From Branchiostoma floridae (taxonomy: Eukaryota > Chordata > Leptocardii > Amphioxiformes > Branchiostomatidae), in assembly GCF_000003815.2 (NCBI RefSeq), contig NC_049991.1, forward strand, positions 14,926,154 to 14,990,153: 64,000 nt of DNA, in the 5' to 3' direction. Below the pieces are notes generated by a model. That model ran no database searches. It saw only the letters and a list, made by a program, of their open reading frames with translations, and was not told the DNA's origin. The translations under genes were made by a program, and so were the position numbers. Shown here piece after piece: positions 3,857 through 49,371 of this stretch. Position 1 is the stretch's first letter, and every line of letters starts with the position of its first letter.

Positions 3857-4587
3857 CAGGGCTCGAAATACACTTTTCAGTCAACTTGCACCAGTGCAAG
3901 TTAAGCCAAAGGTAACTTGCACCAAAAGAAACTTACTTGCACAACCCAAAATAGTGAACTGTTAACCCTTTATTCTTCTTCTGAAAATTTGCAAATATAT
4001 GGGGATACATAAAGACCACATGTTTGGATATTTGTTTTCCAAAGCGTATTTTATTTTGGATTTCAAATTGTACAACAAATGTGAATTTAGGCTTAATTTA
4101 AGACAATTCAATGTCTACAACTTGATAAGATCAATAGATTTCTTCTGGACTCTTCGAGTGACTTCCATCACTATTCTTAACCATCGCTAGAACAACTCAA
4201 TACAAACACATATAACTGGAAAATCCAGTTGATCATATCAAAGTCACTAAATTGTATGCAAAATGTATTTACTCATATGCAAATCAAGGTAAGACAACAT
4301 CATAGGAATTATTAGCATTATAGAGATGGAATTGTCTTCAAATTTTGTTTACCTGGATGTCTAACCAAGTTTAGAAATAACAAATTTAGGCTATTTTTTT
4401 TATTCAGTGTTGTTTTCTTTTACCTTTCAATGGCAGACAATATTGTTGGTGTGTGTAAGCTTTTTCTAAAGTCAGGTATTAGTGGATAAAAGTAACTTGC
4501 ACTGGTGCAAGTTTGGTCCAAACTTACTTGTACCACACCAATTTTACATGCACAAACTTGCATATGCATGTGGTATTTCGAGCCCTG
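3857..4587. mobile_element. Inverted-repeat DNA transposon, CAGGGCTCGAAAT type (731 bp)
   Basis: The left end CAGGGCTCGAAATAC is mirrored at the right by GTATTTCGAGCCCTG. Subterminal CTTGCAC/GTGCAAG palindromes occur inside both ends. The flanks are AT-rich and I cannot define a clean target duplication. CAGGG termini are common in hAT-like non-autonomous elements, so superfamily membership is an inference. No transposase coding is visible. Confidence 0.75.
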
Positions 4588-28700: not shown

Positions 28701-28867
28701 ATGATGTGTTTTAACTGCTGCGAATCCCGCAGCTTGGCGATGGAGGCGATCCCGTCCTGCTTCACCTCCATCTCCATGGTAACCTCCTCCACATCCTCGA
28801 TCTCCTTCTCCTCATTCTCCGGAGCCTCCTCCTCCAGATCAGCCAGGAGCTCGTCTGCTAGAGACAT
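22795..28867 (-). CDS. PRPF31: Pre-mRNA processing factor 31 (U4/U6 snRNP 61 kDa protein)
   Basis: PRPF31 bridges the U4 snRNA-15.5K complex to U5 proteins (PRPF6) when the tri-snRNP assembles in the nucleus. Ten coding exons on the minus strand are 28657-28867, 28120-28203, 27598-27695, 27128-27234, 26530-26699, 26011-26168, 25293-25583, 24401-24529, 23796-23927 and 22795-22911. All introns are GT-AG and the frame is unbroken for 498 aa (the human protein has 499). The N-terminus [13 protein letters not shown] matches the family. An acidic stretch is followed by the NOSIC/coiled-coil region, then the Nop RNP-binding domain ([10 protein letters not shown] near 214-224, [11 protein letters not shown] after it). 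A basic nuclear localisation segment ([15 protein letters not shown], about 342-356) precedes the C-terminal [20 protein letters not shown] signature. The intron after exon 7 carries duplicated exon-end copies. RBM7 is divergent upstream. Identification is very secure. Confidence 0.97.
24785..25260 (-). pseudogene. Three tandem copies of the PRPF31 exon 7 3' end inside the next intron
   Basis: The exon 7/donor segment (about 25238-25345) recurs as degraded copies near 24785-24880, 24897-25075 and 25081-25237. Each contains CTCTGCAAACTGC.TTCTGTT, which is the reverse of the exon's final codons, next to the AC..CTTCACCTC donor region and an ACTGTCACCACAAGAGAAAT intron segment. Two copies also share CTAGCCTCTCTTAGTAACCC. 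They are not needed for the reading frame and look like decayed pseudo-exon ends. Confidence 0.85.
25616..25636. repeat. (GA)n microsatellite in PRPF31 intron 6
   Basis: About ten GA units just beyond the exon 7 acceptor. Confidence 0.9.
28474..28531. repeat. Compact hairpin repeat, 25-bp arms, 8-base loop
   Basis: Arms 28474-28498 and 28507-28531 are inverted copies with two mismatches, around the loop CGCTTGAA. It lies in PRPF31 intron 1. Related half-copies appear near 21640-21680 and 24661-24700 (TGGCTCAATCCTTTC.CTTG type), so it is a small interspersed foldback element. Confidence 0.75.
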
Positions 28868-29252
28868 CCTGATTGGCTGGCAGTCTCAGCTGGGCACAGA
28901 ATACCTGAAGTTGTGAACAAAGGGATCAGAACAGCTGTAATGTTAATAATAGTATTGTAAAAGGGTAAAATGTTTGCGCTGGTTATGTATGTTAATTACA
29001 GTTTTCGCTGTGACCTCTTTACTGCAAACTTTATATACCACCAGTGACCACTTATTGCTGTGTTTCAAACACAAAGTAAACACCACTGAACACCCCATTT
29101 CCCAAAAATAACTAGATACTGTACTGGAATTGAATTATTTTGACTAGTTCATTCTGCTTTTGCTGAAGAAGAGTGATGGATGTCACTCGAAACGTCCGGA
29201 AGTAAATATCCGTTTTTTATCCAGTTGTAGAAATTGAATTGTATTTGAATAT

Positions 29253-30248
29253 CGCTGTGGCTATTGACACACTCAGTGTGCCAATAGCCAAACAGGCTAT
29301 TGACACACCGAGATGCCAGTCAGCCAATCAGAGCTTGTAACGCTCCTTTCTGGCAATATTTTACACAAGCAATAGTTGATTAGACATTGTTCGGAAGATT
29401 AGACATTGGAATCTTTGAATCTTGGAATGAACGGACGTATTCAAGTTATGCCCTACATTTGGATACCTGTTAATACAGCCCTCATCGTGAATGTTTGGCG
29501 TAGCGTAGTGGATAGAGCGTTGGACCCGGGAATTCGTGACAGCAACTCCGACCCGGTTCGAGTCCGCGCCCGAGTTTTTTTAAATTTTTTTTTTCAATTT
29601 TTTCTTGTCCCTTTTTAAACATCCATTTGATATAAGAATATTTTATATATAAACAACTTTTAAAGTTTCTGTTAACATCATAAACCAAAAATAACACTGA
29701 CCACAAAACATGTCATAATTTTCGGCCGTGTGGTTCCGGCGCTATCGGCAGCGACTCAGAAGAATATTTCTTTCACATTAAAAATAATGGAGGTAAAACA
29801 ACAACTATAACTTCGCTTCCTTAGTGATATAAGTTTTGAGGCCGCAAATTCTCCAATACGGCAGGAATTCGTCGGTAAACACAGCTGAAAACGTGTTCCT
29901 GACCGATCCAACATGGCTGCCATGATCACATGCGGTGACAGTAAAACTAGCACCCTATATGATAGCAGATTCCGATGTTTAAAATTGTGCCGTAAACACG
30001 TGAAAAAGATCGTATTTTGGTTTGATAATGGACACAGGATGCCATTTGTATTTTTCAGAGTGTTGATTGTCAAATATAATCGTAAGATTTCCTCATTTTA
30101 GTGGTTTCTAGCACTGGGTGTGTCAATAGCCTAAACAGGCTATCGCCACACTGAGTGTGCCAATAGCCTAAACAGGCTATCGACACACTCAGTGTGTCAA
30201 TAGCCTGTTTAGGCTATCGACACACTGGGTGTGTCAATAGCCTCGCTC
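29253..30248. mobile_element. ~1-kb TIR transposon with 9-bp target duplication and internal tRNA-like segment
   Basis: The ends are inverted repeats built on GGCTATTGACACAC / GTGTGTCAATAGCC, reiterated several times at the right end (30120-30246). The flanks are TTTGAATAT at 29244-29252 and TTTGAATAT at 30249-30257, an exact 9-bp duplication. Inside are CCAATCAGAG near 29325, a tRNA-like segment at 29494-29573 and then T-rich DNA. It also contains CAACATGGCTGCCATGAT near 29908. A 9-bp duplication with long arms suggests a Mutator-like or similar non-autonomous element. No transposase is visible. Confidence 0.85.
29494..29573 (+). other. tRNA-like sequence inside the transposon
   Basis: A box A-like TAGCGTAGTGGATAGAGCG and a box B GGTTCGAGTCC (29555-29565) occur at tRNA spacing, and a T-rich tract follows. 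The ends do not form a clear acceptor stem, so it is a tRNA-derived sequence and not a called tRNA gene. Confidence 0.6.
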
Positions 30249-30953
30249 TTTGAATATTACTTACCTGGATGTCTGCAGGTAAGAAATAAAAGCATAAAAC
30301 AGTACATTGAACATGGAATAGACACTATTTAATACCAGAACAAAACAGAAGCATGCACTGGTGCTGGTCCAAAGCATCCCATCCCAAACAAATGCCCCCC
30401 TCCCTCCTCGCTAAAACCCTTGACTGCTTTGATAATTTCAAGCCACAAAAATGATTCCGAAACATTCGAACATCTCAGAATATACGAAAACTGTGAGAAT
30501 GTACTTACAGTTCCTCACAGCACTACAGAAGGAGTGCCAAACAGACGTTTTCCCGAAGTTGATGGCCCAAATTTCGCCTCACGCTGTTTCGACGTTCAGT
30601 AGGCAAAGCATTGTGGGAAATTTGCCATATCCACTGCAAAAAGAGGTGAATCGAATAACAATTCTTTAAATACATACAAAAGATAAGCTATGATAGTATA
30701 AATAAAAGTACAGAAAGATACTTTAACTTACTTTCAGATTCCTTTAATGCAGTCAATCATCAATATCATGTAAATTAGGGTACAAACAGGCTGATGTAAC
30801 AATTTTATACCCCTATAGAGTAATGTAATACTAATAACCTGTCAGGGTTAGAGGTTACGTGGCTTGGTGAATCAGTGGGTTCGGGAGCGTGCTCTGGACT
30901 TGGTGGAAAAACTTCAATTTCTCCCTCAACAAACCTATCTGTAGCGTGCAGGC

Positions 30954-41400: not shown

Positions 41401-44400
41401 ACCCCAAAGAAGAATTCAAAGTCGCGAAAACAAAATTGGGTCCTGTGGCACCCCTATTAAGAAATTTGTACAGATTTTCAATTTTTCATTTGAATTTTCA
41501 GTCCCAAATTGTAAGAGGAGACAAATGTTTTTTTTTAAAACACCACAGATATTTTTTTTGACACTTGTGACATTGATTGAAATTTTCAGTAACAAATTGT
41601 CACACATGAATTGCTTGCATTGAGATTGAAAACAGGACTCAGAGATTTAATCACCTTCAAGCCCTAAATGTGATAGATGAAGTGTGATGAGACAGTTGAA
41701 GTGAACTTTAATGGCTGTCATGTCTGCAGGACCGTAATGCTTCTGATGCCAAGATGAGGAAGGATCTGGCAGGGGTGCACGACAGGAACCTGCAGCTGGA
41801 GTCAAAGGTCAGGGCCACAAGTCACCGTTTCATTGATTTTGTGATGCCACTTGAAGATTGTACCGGTAACTAAAATGTGATATTTGATATGATATGAAAA
41901 GAGTTGATGATCTAGTTGACGTATATGGTGGGTCTTGAGTGTTGAAGAAAAGTTCTAGTGGGAGGTAGTGGTGCGTACCGAAGCTCACATTCCGGTTCAG
42001 GTCCGGACTCGAGTCCAAAGATTCCGGTTCAGGTCCGGACTTATAAGTCCGTTTTTTTACGGTCGCTAAAGTTTCCCAATTAACGTTAGACACAAGCATA
42101 AAGCGACTTGCTCTACTGCAGCTACCCATTTGCGTATCCGGCGCCCGCCGCTGGGCCGCATGCTATCAAAATATTACCAAAGACGACTGCATCATTTTCA
42201 AAGGTGTAGAAACATCGATTTTTAATAAAAACTATCGGGAAATCACGGCAAAATTCGACATTTTCCGCTTGTTTTTTCCGCTTTCCAGAAAACCGGTTTT
42301 TGACGTTCCGGTTTTAACCGGACTTGAACCGAAAGTTATAGCAAGTCCAAGTCCGGTTCGACGAACCGGTACGCACCACTAGTGGGAGGTAAATTTCTTT
42401 CCAATCTTTTGAATCAATGTGTATGGGCCATTCTTGTAGTGATTCAGCAACAATCTTAAAGAGGATCAATATCTATTGAGTTGTGTCAATACTTCAGTCT
42501 GTGACACCTTTCACCATACATGTAGACTGAAACTTTTTATGCAGATCTTGGCATGAAGTAGACTCCCTTGCAGTCTTCGGGAAGGGCTGTTGAGGAAGGG
42601 AGTTTGCAGAAACTCGCTATCACGGCAAACTCCCTTTCTCAACAAACTCCCTTTCCTGGCACAATAGAACATAGCCAACGTTGAAAATCGCAGACCAACG
42701 CGCCCCCCCCCCCCCCGTGTAGACTATTTGACATTCAGTAGTTTCTAGCGAGGACCAATCAGATAGCTGCTGGCAGGTCACTGACATTGGGCGATAACTG
42801 CGAGCTTTTCGCACCCTTCCTTATCATGCAAATGCCGTGAACTCAAATCAAGCAGGCATTATTGTTCGTCATTTTGCACCGTGCGGGAGCTTTACTTGCT
42901 CACAAACAACTCTACATATCAGTTTAAAAAGTTTACTTTGGTGATCAAAAGGTGATGGGACTGTAGCGAGTTTTCTTGCCATTAAACTTGTTGAAATGAT
43001 GGCCTTACAGTTTATTTCCGTCTCTTTTATTACGCGCTTTTTTCATTAAATTGAATCGCAAGGCTTCGTGGCGTAGTTGACTGGTGATTGGATTTCTAAC
43101 TTTTGGACCAGAGTTCGAACCTGACGTGGTGCAATTTTTTTTACTTTTTTAAAAAGTTTTTTTCTTTGTTGAATATTTTACTATTTATCACTATGCGGTC
43201 GTACTTTTGTAACTGAAGTGTTTCGCTTCTTGTCACTCCCCAAAAATGTTGTCACCCCAAAAAAGTTGTGACTTTTAGTACGTGTCACCCTATGTTTCAG
43301 TGCTATTTCCTTGCATTCACAAAAATAAAAACAGTACGTAGTTCTACAACTTACAACTTGTACCTTGTAACAAGGTAAAGAGACGTATCTGATGACCCGG
43401 TGTACAGCGGCTGTAGTAAGTTGTCAAATATATGCGTTATGCACTCAAGTCGTGTTGTTTGCTGATTATTCAGTCCGTCCTTCTATTCTATATAACCAGC
43501 ATTCAAAGGGACCAGCTCATAAAAATACATGCTGCAAACTAAAGGAAGCCCCACAAAGATGTCCTTTGTAATGTAGTGACGGTATTTAACAGCTAGTAAT
43601 CGACGGACAATAGGTATGAAACATTCCTCCCTGACCCTCGCGTACCACCGGTCTGACGTTAATTGGTTACTCTGCATTTGAAAGAACCGGCTTCATGGGC
43701 GTTGACCTCGCTAGAAATCTACTTCATAACATTTAGAGCTAGGCCCCCCCCCCCCCAAAAAAAACAGCCCCTTCCCGAAGACTGCAAGGGAGTCTAGGCA
43801 TGAAGTAGCTATTTGGAATAGACTAAAAGCTCAATGTAGAATATATGAAATTACATGATGGACATAAATGTGCTTTTGACAAAATATTTAACATGTGGCT
43901 GGTGATGTTTACTATCTATATACAACTATGTTTTTGAAATCAACTAGATCTAATTAGACTGTGATTATAATAAAAAGATATACAACTACAACTTTGAGAT
44001 TGGAACAACGAGAAATCACCGACTGTGGTTATTGGAAACCTTGATAGATGTCATTTGATTGACAGGTGGACGAGTTAGAGAGGCGGAACCGGGCCCAGCA
44101 GGACCAGGTGTTTGAGCTGAAGGAAACTGTCGCACATCTCAACGCACAGATCAAGGTTACAAACACACAGTCTGATGGTAAGGTTTGGTGCCAACAGAAT
44201 TCTGTAGAGGACGTAAAATAAGATACAGTCAAACTTGCAAGTTTCCGGGGATTAGATTTCGCATTAACGGGAAAATGGAGTGTTTGCGGTGGTTTTGAGT
44301 TCATGGTAGCACCATCCCGCGTTGCATTTACAATTCTGTACTGTAGTCACATACTACAAATCGCCAGTCAGAAACCACTTACTGTTTACTTGGCAAAGGT

Positions 44401-47400: not shown

Positions 47401-49371
47401 TTCCTGTCATTGAGGTGTTACAGAACTAGGAGTGGGTACCAGTGCAGAAAATTCAGGTAGAGGTACGGTCCAGGTCCAGAGGATCAGACTTCCATTGATT
47501 AAGATGCAGCGCAAGCAGTTTTGATAGTAAGACTGGCACTTAGTTGCTGTTGCCCCAGAATTTCTGATTTAAAAGGCTACACATTAACCAGTATAATTCT
47601 CGTTATTGAGATGTTAAGGTTCATATTCTTAACAGGTGTTAATCCAAGGTTTGAGAAAGGGTGAGGTGTCTATCACAGGCCTTGGCTGGCAAACCATGAT
47701 TAATGGTTGGCACGTTGCAAAGGAAAATTTTGGTTTCATTGTAAATTTGTTAACTTTCATTGTTGAATCTGACATTTTAAACTCAAAAAATATATTTTCA
47801 TGTCATCAAATCAACATTCTGTCTATCACAAGACTGAAGCAAATTTCCATCCTGGGTTGGAGGGAATGTCCTAGAGAAAACCCTGGCCCTGTACATGTAT
47901 CTTTGTGTCCTTGACAGTCAGGATGTTCAAGTACATCAATATAATTTGCAGCCTCAAAGGTCCTTGTTAACATCTCCAGACACATCCTTAATTCAACTCT
48001 TCCTCCGCATGATTTACGACACAGTTAACACAGGGCTGTACCCTAGTCATACTTCATAGCTCTGCCTGTCTCTTACTCTGCAATGATGAATGAACTTGAA
48101 CACACAATTGGCCAGAAGCCATCTCATGAGCAATGGGAGTAGAATACAAATTCACCTGTGGCCCATTTAGTTGAACGTGAAGGATATACTTGTTCATGGA
48201 GAATGGCTGGTTCCCCCTTGATCTTTAAAGGAAATCACTGGAGGAGTTTTATCTGTTAGATTGTTTAACTGTTAGTGCCATAAGATCATGTAGCTTGTAT
48301 TGAAGACTTTGTTGTGTAAGAATTATGTTAAATTTATTAACAATACACATGTTGCCATGAATTACTATGATGTGATACACATGGCATTAATAATAGGTAC
48401 TTTTCTTGTACTTTTCTACTTGCTTCAGAGACTGACATAAGAAAATTTTGAACAAATCAGTGACCTAAAAAAAAAGAACTGCAATGTTTACTATCCTCCT
48501 TTTATTACAAGGATGCTAATCTCCAAGCATATCCTAAGGTGCCATAAGATAGTATCAATGCTGGCCAAGGAGTATAGCCGGCCAAAGGGAGTCAAATGGC
48601 CACCTACGGTGGGTTTGATACTATATTACGCCACCGTGGATCTGCTTGGAGATTACAAGGATGCATCATAACAAATCATTGACTTGCCCTCAGATAGGAC
48701 GTTAAATGGAGGTCCCACACCTCAAGTACATTAAAGAAGACACCACACAAGACTAGGGGTCCTTCCCAGAGTGAGTGGATCAAACCTCACAGCCTGGTTT
48801 CTGGGTTGACATCTTGAAATGGTGATGTCACCTTTTACTTTTAGGATTTATGTCAATCCTTCAACAAATAAGATACAACTTCAACAAGTAAAATTAACTA
48901 CTGTAAATACAGAAACTTTTGTGGTGGTTTGATGTTTGCGGTTTTCACGGTGACAGCTTCACCACGAGCTTAAAACCACCGCAAACATTTTTCCATGGCG
49001 GTAAGAGACTACAGTGCATGGTGCTACCGCGAACTTAAAACCACCGTGAAAAGTCCTTTTTCCTGCTACTGCAAAATTAAATCCCCGCGAACTTGTATTT
49101 ATAGTATTTATATGTAAATAAAAAATGCTGGTTTTAATTTTACCTCCTTTTGGTCCTACAATCCTCCCATCTCCCTTTCTCTCCAGACCAGAACCACCGG
49201 CACCGTGAGGAGAGGCGCGACCTTGAGACGGAGGTGACATCCCTGAGGGAGCAGGTCCGGATGAAGGATGCTGAGATCAGCAGGATCAGGGATGAGGAGG
49301 CGCAGAGAGCCAGGATGCTGCAGTCGGCCATCAATAACTATGTGGGCGGAGCTACCGGGGGAAGGAGCTGA
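35447..49371 (+). CDS. LRRC45: Leucine-rich repeat-containing protein 45 (centrosome linker)
   Basis: LRRC45 is a fibre component of the proximal centriole linker that keeps centrosomes together. Eighteen coding exons: 35447-35586, 35906-36003, 36153-36214, 36616-36686, 37647-37825, 38247-38375, 38783-38895, 40655-40791, 41151-41286, 41730-41807, 44066-44177, 44574-44644, 44884-44976, 45433-45525, 45892-45957, 46444-46551, 47179-47326 and 49187-49371. The frame is continuous for 672 aa (the human protein has 670). The N-terminus [14 protein letters not shown] matches the family. Leucine-rich repeats fill about residues 45-225 ([31 protein letters not shown]). From about 230 to the end is a long Gln/Glu/Lys-rich coiled coil, with [20 protein letters not shown] and the C-terminal [13 protein letters not shown] signature. 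Exon 11 was extended to the GTAAGG donor at 44178 because it keeps frame; the exon 12 donor (GTGGAT) is weak. Very secure identification. Confidence 0.95.
39418..39536. mobile_element. ~120-bp foldback repeat in LRRC45 intron 7
   Basis: GGATCCGTCCC at the left is mirrored by GGGACGGATCC at the right. No coding content. Confidence 0.5.
41966..42381. mobile_element. hAT-like MITE (416 bp) in LRRC45 intron 10
   Basis: Perfect 15-bp inverted termini TAGTGGTGCGTACCG / CGGTACGCACCACTA are flanked by the exact 8-bp duplication GTGGGAGG (41958-41965 and 42382-42389). Internal GGTTCAGGTCCGGAC repeats resemble the interior of the element at 11524. It is non-autonomous. Confidence 0.92.
42559..43796. 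mobile_element. 1.24-kb TIR transposon with 9-bp target duplication and internal tRNA-like segment
   Basis: The 33-34-bp inverted termini begin TAGACTCCCTTGCAGTCTTC and end with its mirror; the arms differ by one G in a GGGG run. The flanks GGCATGAAG at 42550-42558 and 43797-43805 are an exact 9-bp duplication. Subterminal AAACTCCCTTTC repeats, a CCAATCAGAT motif near 42755, a tRNA-like segment at 43062-43132 and a following T-rich tract lie inside. Poly(C) runs sit near both ends. No transposase is visible. Confidence 0.9.
43062..43132 (+). other. tRNA-like sequence inside the intron 10 transposon
   Basis: A box A-like TGGCGTAGTTGACTGG and a box B-like AGTTCGAACCT (43112-43122) occur at tRNA spacing, followed directly by a T-run. 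No full cloverleaf can be argued by eye. Confidence 0.55.
44220..44350. mobile_element. Degraded copy of the GTTTGCGGTGG foldback MITE
   Basis: GGAAAATGGAGTGTTTGCGG followed by TGGTTTTGAGTTC matches the copy at 46575-46795. The right half is eroded. Confidence 0.55.
45655..45775 (+). mobile_element. SINE core fragment (headless)
   Basis: CCCTTGCTGAAGGCACATTA, then a CACTCC..GCACTTGTAAAAAATGGGTACC stretch, matches the body of the SINE at 52150-52300. The tRNA-derived head is missing. It lies in LRRC45 intron 14. Confidence 0.65.
46575..46795. mobile_element. Foldback MITE, TACTGTAAATGCA family, in LRRC45 intron 16
   Basis: It starts TACTGTAAATGCATTTAA and contains nested inverted GTTTGCGGTG / CACCGCAAA arms around 46720-46760. 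The right terminus is degraded. Confidence 0.75.
47427..47485. mobile_element. Left-end fragment of the hAT-like element seen at 11524
   Basis: TAGGAGTGGGTACCAGTGCAG and AGAAAATTCAGGTA match the left end of the 11524 element. The right terminus is absent. Confidence 0.6.
48517..48655. mobile_element. 139-bp MITE with 9-bp target duplication, LRRC45 intron 17
   Basis: TAATCTCCAAGCA at the left is mirrored by TGCTTGGAGATTA at the right. The flanks CAAGGATGC at 48508-48516 and 48656-48664 are identical. The interior is itself palindromic (GATAGTATCAA / TTTGATACTAT). Confidence 0.88.
48899..49105. mobile_element. Foldback MITE, TACTGTAAATACA family, LRRC45 intron 17
   Basis: It starts TACTGTAAATACAG and ends TGTATTTATAGTA, with internal GCGGTTTTCACGGTGA and ACCGCGAACTTAAAACCACC blocks shared with 60706-60917. 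It ends about 80 bp before the last LRRC45 exon. Confidence 0.8.

Follow-up and report, generated by a model that had tools for sequence, protein, structure and literature searches.

tRNA-derived SINEs, which are amplified genome-wide, begin with a degenerate head that resembles a tRNA and contains A and B boxes. Among DNA transposons, the closest described systems are Tm1 of root-knot nematodes and Muta1 of Aedes aegypti. The Tm1 report (PMC3169594) describes a Mutator/Foldback family with a MULE-type transposase, motif-free 9-bp target duplications, composite arms of tandem units (~14 bp each, in varying number), short asymmetric non-inverted end motifs of 7 bp, and MITE-like members; one Tm1 class bears an RNA-level host motif, the histone hairpin. 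Muta1, as described in its report (PMC5225508), is an active MULE classed as a Foldback element. It encodes a transposase, its movement was shown, and it has 8-9 bp duplications, a composite TIR with subterminal tandem repeats, and hundreds of non-autonomous derivatives of varied internal sequence; the word "tRNA" is absent from the main text of PMC5225508. Within the literature that we covered, including passages of PMC5802833 and PMC7786948, we recognized no report of a TIR element with an internal tRNA-like or Pol III unit; as many transposon-library reports lie outside that coverage, this argues only weakly that none has been described.

We analysed a 64,000-nt stretch of the Branchiostoma floridae genome (contig NC_049991.1, positions 14,926,154 to 14,990,153, forward strand; hereafter the window) and describe in it a non-autonomous transposon, E1, whose features are collected in Table 1. 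E1 shares with Tm1 the motif-free 9-bp duplications, the composite arms of tandem units, the short asymmetric non-inverted ends and the MITE-like character, whereas its end motifs are 6 bp long, its units are 37-bp palindromes, and its RNA-level cargo is a Pol III unit and not a histone hairpin. The likeness to Muta1 is partial and concerns the duplication length, the composite, repeat-bearing TIR and the abundance of non-autonomous copies.

A degenerate tRNA-like part with A and B boxes and the amplification are common to E1 and tRNA-derived SINEs. Unlike SINEs, E1 has DNA-transposon ends and a 9-bp duplication around the whole element, and its cassette ends in a terminator, not in a retroposon tail. 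We also considered the cassette as an inserted SINE and rejected this, as the best repeat flanking the cassette was matched by 171 of 500 shuffles.

Table 1. Features of E1 and of the comparison region at 42559 (window coordinates).
Feature	Position	Strand	Remarks
E1, whole non-autonomous transposon	29253..30248	+	996 bp; 40 near-full genome copies scored
Left copy of the 9-bp target-site duplication TTTGAATAT	29244..29252	+	exact repeat; empty-site alignment
Right copy of the 9-bp target-site duplication TTTGAATAT	30249..30257	+	exact repeat; empty-site alignment
E1-type ends			CGCTGTGGCTATTGAC...CAATAGCCTCGCTC
E1 left terminal hexamer CGCTGT, outside the inverted repeat	29253..29258	+	identical in 29/30 copies
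E1 right terminal hexamer TCGCTC, outside the inverted repeat	30243..30248	+	conserved in 28/30 copies
E1 left arm	29259..29312	+	one full and one half unit, 31-bp palindrome, short spacers
E1 right arm	30112..30242	+	about 3.6 units of 37-bp palindromic repeat; hairpin z -14
CCAATCAG, CCAAT-box-like, conserved in the E1 family	29324..29331	+	39/40 copies
E1 substitution hotspot, coinciding with the predicted Pol III transcript	29477..29607	+	two-rate likelihood segmentation, lnL gain 144, 40 copies
E1 A box TAGCGTAGTGG	29501..29511	+	exact fit to TRGYNNARNNG
E1 B box GGTTCGAGTCC	29555..29565	+	exact fit to GGTTCGANTCC
E1 T7 run, Pol III terminator	29575..29581	+	more T-runs up to 29603; first T-run past the B box at least 5 in 40/40 copies
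Comparison region, with an inner element nested in a small outer TIR element	42559..43796	+	28-bp perfect TIRs, 9-bp duplication GGCATGAAG
E2i, inner tRNA-bearing element	42717..43743	+	GTGTAGACTATTTGAC...TTTAGAGCTAGG, at oligo-C run
E2i 12-nt subterminal inverted repeat	42742 and 43706		~25 nt inside the ends
E2i Pol III unit	43046..43134	+	leader, tRNA-like body, then T8
E2i hot leader	43046-43062	+	
E2i A box	43069-43079	+	
E2i B box	43112-43122	+	

The initial annotation placed a TIR element with a 9-bp duplication at this position, which we could confirm: TTTGAATAT is repeated exactly on both sides. E1 interrupts the tail of a dispersed repeat, and another copy of this tail, at 4318-4380, is free of the insertion. 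With a single TTTGAATAT between them, the two flanks of E1 aligned to this empty site without a gap over the junction and with a score of 58, the best of 1000 shuffles reaching 32. The arms, CCAATCAG, the tRNA-like segment and the T-rich tract also follow each other as annotated; the outer 6 nt at each end, however, lie outside the inverted repeat. The inverted repeat proper, GGCTATTGACACAC, begins 6 nt inward of each end, and the outer hexamers are non-inverted yet conserved among 30 copies (Table 1). Of the 30 copies fetched first, 29 have the left end, CGCTGTGG, and 28 have the right end, CCTCGCTC; the only one of the 30 lacking the left hexamer was L030, whose match begins at element base 20. 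Each arm of the window copy is built of tandem palindromes that repeat every 36-37 bp, about 2 imperfect units on the left and 3.6 on the right. We also observed that the right arm (30112-30242) forms a hairpin of ~100 nt (z -14) with a weak, below-threshold Rfam likeness to miRNA precursors; it is a possible source of small RNA. Taken alone, CCAATCAG was not significantly enriched in the whole window (5 found, 2.8 expected; at least 5 in 17 of 100 shuffles).

Mutator/Foldback elements, MULEs among them, make target duplications of 8-10 bp and have composite arms of tandem or palindromic units. The E1 duplication was an exact 9 bp in 23 of 30 copies, with at least 7 of 9 positions matching in 26 of 30, and the arms are built of such units, as counted in the window copy. 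The arms and the conserved non-inverted 6-nt ends resemble the Mutator/Foldback type, and the name MULE, where applied to E1, is a structural assignment. With its 996 bp, its lack of coding sequence and its many near-identical copies, E1 also has the character of a MITE, or non-autonomous element; none of the three reading frames tested gave a Pfam match. Exact-pattern scans of viral contigs returned no match to the E1 arm, the E1 cassette, the outer 42559 TIR or the flanking repeat, and a scan of the same kind in prokaryote genomes returned none to the E1 arm.

The genome (513,431,437 bases in 431 contigs) was searched with a 1021-base E1 query. The best 40 of 418 candidates were scored, and all 40 were near-full, each spanning some 840 or more of the query bases. 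Five of them match exactly from the first base to the last, and the 39 copies beside the window's own have identities of 94-97%. The 23 sites with an exact duplication were 87% A+T, and we noticed no motif in them. We must also note that the E1 and E2i copy sets consist of the best-scoring copies and are not a random sample, so copies without the unit are under-represented. As a side observation, some E1 copies lie in pairs, in opposite orientation and ~0.5-1.2 kb apart: L005 with L014 (C1:4858248, 4859918), L015 with C17:1792586, and L028 with C5:867171. The duplications of the C1 pair, the one pair in which both members were checked, differ (ATCATAAAT against a run of A). Local hopping or a target preference would account for such pairs.

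On one side of E1 lies a gene for an RRM protein that resembles RBM7 (its top PDB match, E 3e-29), on the other a gene with a PRPF31-like N-terminus (E 5e-5), and both read away from the element. E1 occupies 996 of the 2086 bases between the start codons at 28867 and 30954, in agreement with the earlier statement that it fills nearly half of the PRPF31-RBM7 interval. Two further TIR elements were observed in the window. The element at 41966-42381, which we take to be hAT-like, has ends TAGTGGTGCGTACCG, an 8-bp duplication GTGGGAGG and a CpG o/e of 1.58, and lies 177 bp before the outer 42559 element. The short element at 48517-48655 (TAATCTCCAAGCA, 9-bp duplication CAAGGATGC) has relatives in L005, L010, L021 and L022. 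Neither carries a Pol III unit with A and B boxes; the former has a good B-box-like motif in its end, without an A box or terminator.

The cargo of E1 has the parts of a type 2 Pol III promoter: an A box, a B box at tRNA spacing and a T-run terminator. When the window was scanned for B boxes within reach of an A box, only the B box of E1 was exact. The combined A and B boxes were scored with a matrix built from 25 human tRNAs, whose median is 31.4 bits. Over 64 kb and both strands, E1 (34.5 bits) and the cassette at 42559 (25.2 bits) ranked 1 and 2, and none of 400 shuffles of each element equalled its score. Outside the E1 copies, in ~87 kb of flanks from L002-L030, there was one further unit of at least 22 bits, in L021. 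The stretch L021:841-903, presumably tRNA-Glu-like, scored 44.5 bits against Rfam tRNA and has no T-run within 30 nt of its B box.

The E1 cassette is not a tRNA gene: it fails as a cloverleaf, and the tRNA fold has been lost. ARAGORN at its default threshold called no tRNA at the cassette. At 90% of the threshold, it called E1 and three other places in the window (5 of 1000 E1 shuffles gave a call), and the 42559 cassette was called only at 80%, where 421 of 1000 shuffles also gave one. Among the E1 copies, 3/40 were called at 90% and 17/40 at 80%. tRNA-likeness judged by ARAGORN alone is thus weak. There was no match to Rfam tRNA in the window, in the cassette or in any E1 copy of 20 other loci. 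A selected RNA structure in E1 was likewise rejected, as we found no covariation in the RNA pairing among 40 copies, and the cassettes of the window fold no better than shuffles.

The main finding concerns the rate at which this unit changes. The hot segment delimited by the two-rate segmentation carries 1.79 changes per non-CpG site compared to 0.27 in the rest of E1, i.e. 6.5 times more (40 copies). Its edges are sharp, being confined within 2 lnL to 29476-29477 on the 5' side and to 29607-29609 on the 3' side. The former is 24 nt upstream of the A box, close to the expected start of a Pol III transcript, and the latter falls directly past the T-runs. Taken one by one, 38 of the 40 copies have a unit faster than the rest. 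In a count over 29 copies, with the tree built from E1 without the unit and CpG sites left out, we obtained 1.44 changes per non-CpG site in the unit and 0.21 in the rest (0 of 20000 site permutations), and the contrast persists with a tree from the whole element. Singletons numbered 30 in 79 unit sites against 84 in 587 sites of the rest (about 2.6-fold denser); shared variants at the same sites numbered 35 and 24 (about 11-fold). The weaker rise of the singletons may be due to weaker transcription of dead copies, recurrent change at fast sites, or an exchange process. The spectrum of the hotspot is broad, with transitions and transversions mixed. No clear strand asymmetry of substitutions was found in the 40 copies, which counts against a transcription-linked origin, as some mutation of that kind would leave asymmetry.

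Two other causes of the hotspot were set aside. DNA folding of the hot segment was ordinary (z 0.07 and -0.15 for the two strands), and the strongly folding arms are not hot. The contrast is present with CpG sites left out, which speaks against CpG decay. High CpG was also rejected as a sign of Pol III protection, since the hAT-like element nearby, which lacks such a unit, has a higher ratio than E1 (1.58 vs 0.98).

Inside the hotspot, the promoter has been retained. The B box took 6 changes in its 11 sites compared to 159 in the 78 other hot sites outside the T-runs, and only 44 of 20000 permutations were as low (40 copies). The A box was not significantly slow (16 events; 5447 of 20000 permutations as low), while 11 of the 17 copy-level A-box substitutions among the 40 copies stay inside the consensus. 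The mean promoter score of the copies was 32.9, as opposed to 30.0 with substitutions relocated randomly, and 0 of 5000 simulations reached the observed value. With the promoter score and the B box held and no covariation in the RNA, what has been kept is the promoter and not the RNA. Retention of a promoter under such fast change points to a selected function. This was one of two readings of the cargo in the initial annotation; the other, common ancestry with the cassette at 42559, fared worse.

The region at 42559 was described earlier as an element of the same plan as E1, but it proved to be a nest of an outer TIR element and an inner one, E2i. When the best 40 of 979 candidates from a genome search with this region were scored, nearly all matches outside the window fell within about 42700-43765. 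The E2i copies with both ends intact had C-rich runs on both sides in 20/20 cases, and L042 and L044 have an identical CCCCCTCCCCC on either side. Because the matches stop short of the outer TIRs and the flanks are C-rich, the tRNA-like part belongs to E2i, which landed in an oligo-C run of the outer TIR element. CCAATCAG was present in 1/24 E2i copies, 22 of which have CCAATCAA, as opposed to 39/40 E1 copies; given this and its count in the window, we rejected it as a shared family part. The shared TIR plan and the shared motif thus both fail.

E1 and E2i have no common ends or target type. The A-to-B spacing is 54 in E1 and 43 in the 42559 cassette, and with a z of 2.4, the cassettes are directly less similar than the lower quartile (2.9) of human tRNA pairs; common ancestry of the cassettes is thus not supported. 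Pointing the other way are the parts that follow the tRNA-like segments, which aligned with a score of 331, above 200/200 shuffles (maximum 319), and the alignment of whole E1 with the whole 42559 region, which beat 196/200 shuffles. The alignment starts in the T-rich tracts, and we therefore provisionally read it as local composition. The view that two distinct families carry a tRNA-like cargo in many copies held up: the cargo was analysed in 40 E1 copies and is kept in 23 of the 24 E2i copies aligned (30 fetched), the exception being L069, which is rearranged there.

The E2i rates, in changes per site over 23 copies, are 1.9 for the leader, 0.39 for the tRNA-like part, 0.11 for the B box and 0.93 for the T-rich trailer, with 0.23 and 0.25 for the 5' and 3' flanking parts; they leave out L069, which otherwise gave a false hotspot of 285 bp. 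The unit is faster than the rest in 20/23 copies, yet the body is barely faster than the flanks (0.39 vs 0.24; 267 of 10000 permutations). The best-fitting fast segment is the leader alone, at 43043-43058, or 43047-43058 without L059. Its start at 43043 (range 43040-43047; 43047 without L059, range 43046-43047) lies 22-29 nt upstream of the A box, compared to 24 nt in E1. E2i does not repeat the whole-transcript hotspot of E1: a rate raised over the predicted transcribed stretch, as expected from transcription-associated mutagenesis, was found in E1, and in E2i only in the leader and the T-rich trailer. Misalignment of homopolymers may have inflated the trailer rate. If the whole E2i transcript had a raised rate, its body would have to be constrained.

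Several other processes could in principle give such a pattern. The cargo may be passive, a tRNA gene or pseudogene captured once and decaying, while the rest of the element is slow only through transposition constraint. Loss of the tRNA fold in nearly all copies (ARAGORN at 90%, 3/40; no Rfam tRNA in 20 loci) and an RNA without covariation would fit this. Nevertheless, the unit is also richer in singletons, most of which arose after insertion; the 3' core, whose tested frames had no Pfam match, is about as slow as the 5' part; the 5' edge is sharp, and its distance to the A box is comparable in both families; and the B box is spared and promoter strength kept. We consider a passive cargo unlikely. 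Somewhat less probable still is that gene conversion or recombination with other tRNA-like cassettes diversifies the unit. Shared variants conflict in many pairs, 196/820 within the unit and 252/1107 between unit and rest, but the proportion within the rest is not much lower (61/351). Moreover, the variants of 30 copies look like scattered single substitutions and not blocks, and many conflicts are expected in any case from recurrent mutation at fast sites.

A Pol III transcript might also be copied into error-prone cDNA and written back into the elements. The transcript-like edges of the E1 hot segment, its broad substitution spectrum and the recurrence of variants in copies not grouped by the rest of the element are compatible with such rewriting. 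In E2i, however, leader and trailer are hot and the body hardly so, for which mutation plus selection gives a better fit, and we regard rewriting as very improbable. We give the least credence to the idea that the hotspot is artificial, produced by the alignment, by mixed subfamilies or by the choice of copies. The copies analysed are the best-scoring ones, and the rearranged L069 spread a false hotspot in E2i until it was dropped. On the other hand, the E1 unit aligns with few gaps ahead of the T-runs, 38/40 copies are individually hot, and the hotspot persists whether the tree is built from the rest or from the whole element.

We find it probable, on the evidence of the sequences, that E1 is a Mutator/Foldback-like non-autonomous transposon with a germline-active Pol III gene that is mutated by its own transcription and whose promoter is under selection. 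E1 would be moved in trans by a transposase encoded elsewhere and would carry a degenerate tRNA-derived gene, with TFIIIC binding the predicted A and B boxes. The Pol III transcript would be ~100 nt long, starting near 29480 and ending in the T-runs at 29575-29603. Judging by the shape and size of the hotspot, germline transcription would open the DNA and raise the mutation rate about sixfold over that stretch only. In copies ancestral to later ones, the promoter and especially its B box would have been kept, while RNA sequence and tRNA fold drifted. Selection would then act on the recruitment of Pol III and TFIIIC, not on a particular RNA, and this recruitment would presumably aid the transposon. 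The likeliest benefit, a speculation that we hold with considerable doubt, would be open, unsilenced germline chromatin accessible to the transposase. E2i, an unrelated family, may have reached the same arrangement independently.

Since the raised rate is tied to the predicted transcript in two unrelated families and the boxes are held, the pattern is as would be left by transcription-associated mutagenesis of a germline-active Pol III gene. A 2018 PNAS paper reportedly found several-fold raised mutation at tRNA genes, and the size of our hotspot agrees with that rate. Host tRNA genes and E1 alike have a several-fold raised substitution over the Pol III unit with a constrained promoter, and E2i is like tRNA genes in having a hot leader and trailer around a slower body. 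E1 is unlike them in having a hot tRNA body and in retaining no functional tRNA. Tentatively, and with less confidence than for E1 itself, we suggest that at least two unrelated DNA-transposon families may have independently adopted a Pol III gene as a working part, with TFIIIC and Pol III keeping copies accessible to the transposase and the substitution load of each copy's unit recording the strength of its germline Pol III transcription.

The mutation rate of tRNA genes themselves is hard to see because selection removes changes. E1 offers many near-identical Pol III units scattered over the genome; each comes with ~640 bp of element DNA as an internal control, and none has a tRNA to maintain. 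If the proposed explanation is true, Pol III transcription-associated mutagenesis would be measurable copy by copy and by chromatin context. At this locus, E1 places a predicted Pol III unit between the starts of two RNA-processing genes, PRPF31 and RBM7. For DNA transposons, the finding provides a testable idea, namely that a Pol III promoter may serve as a cis-acting mobility aid.
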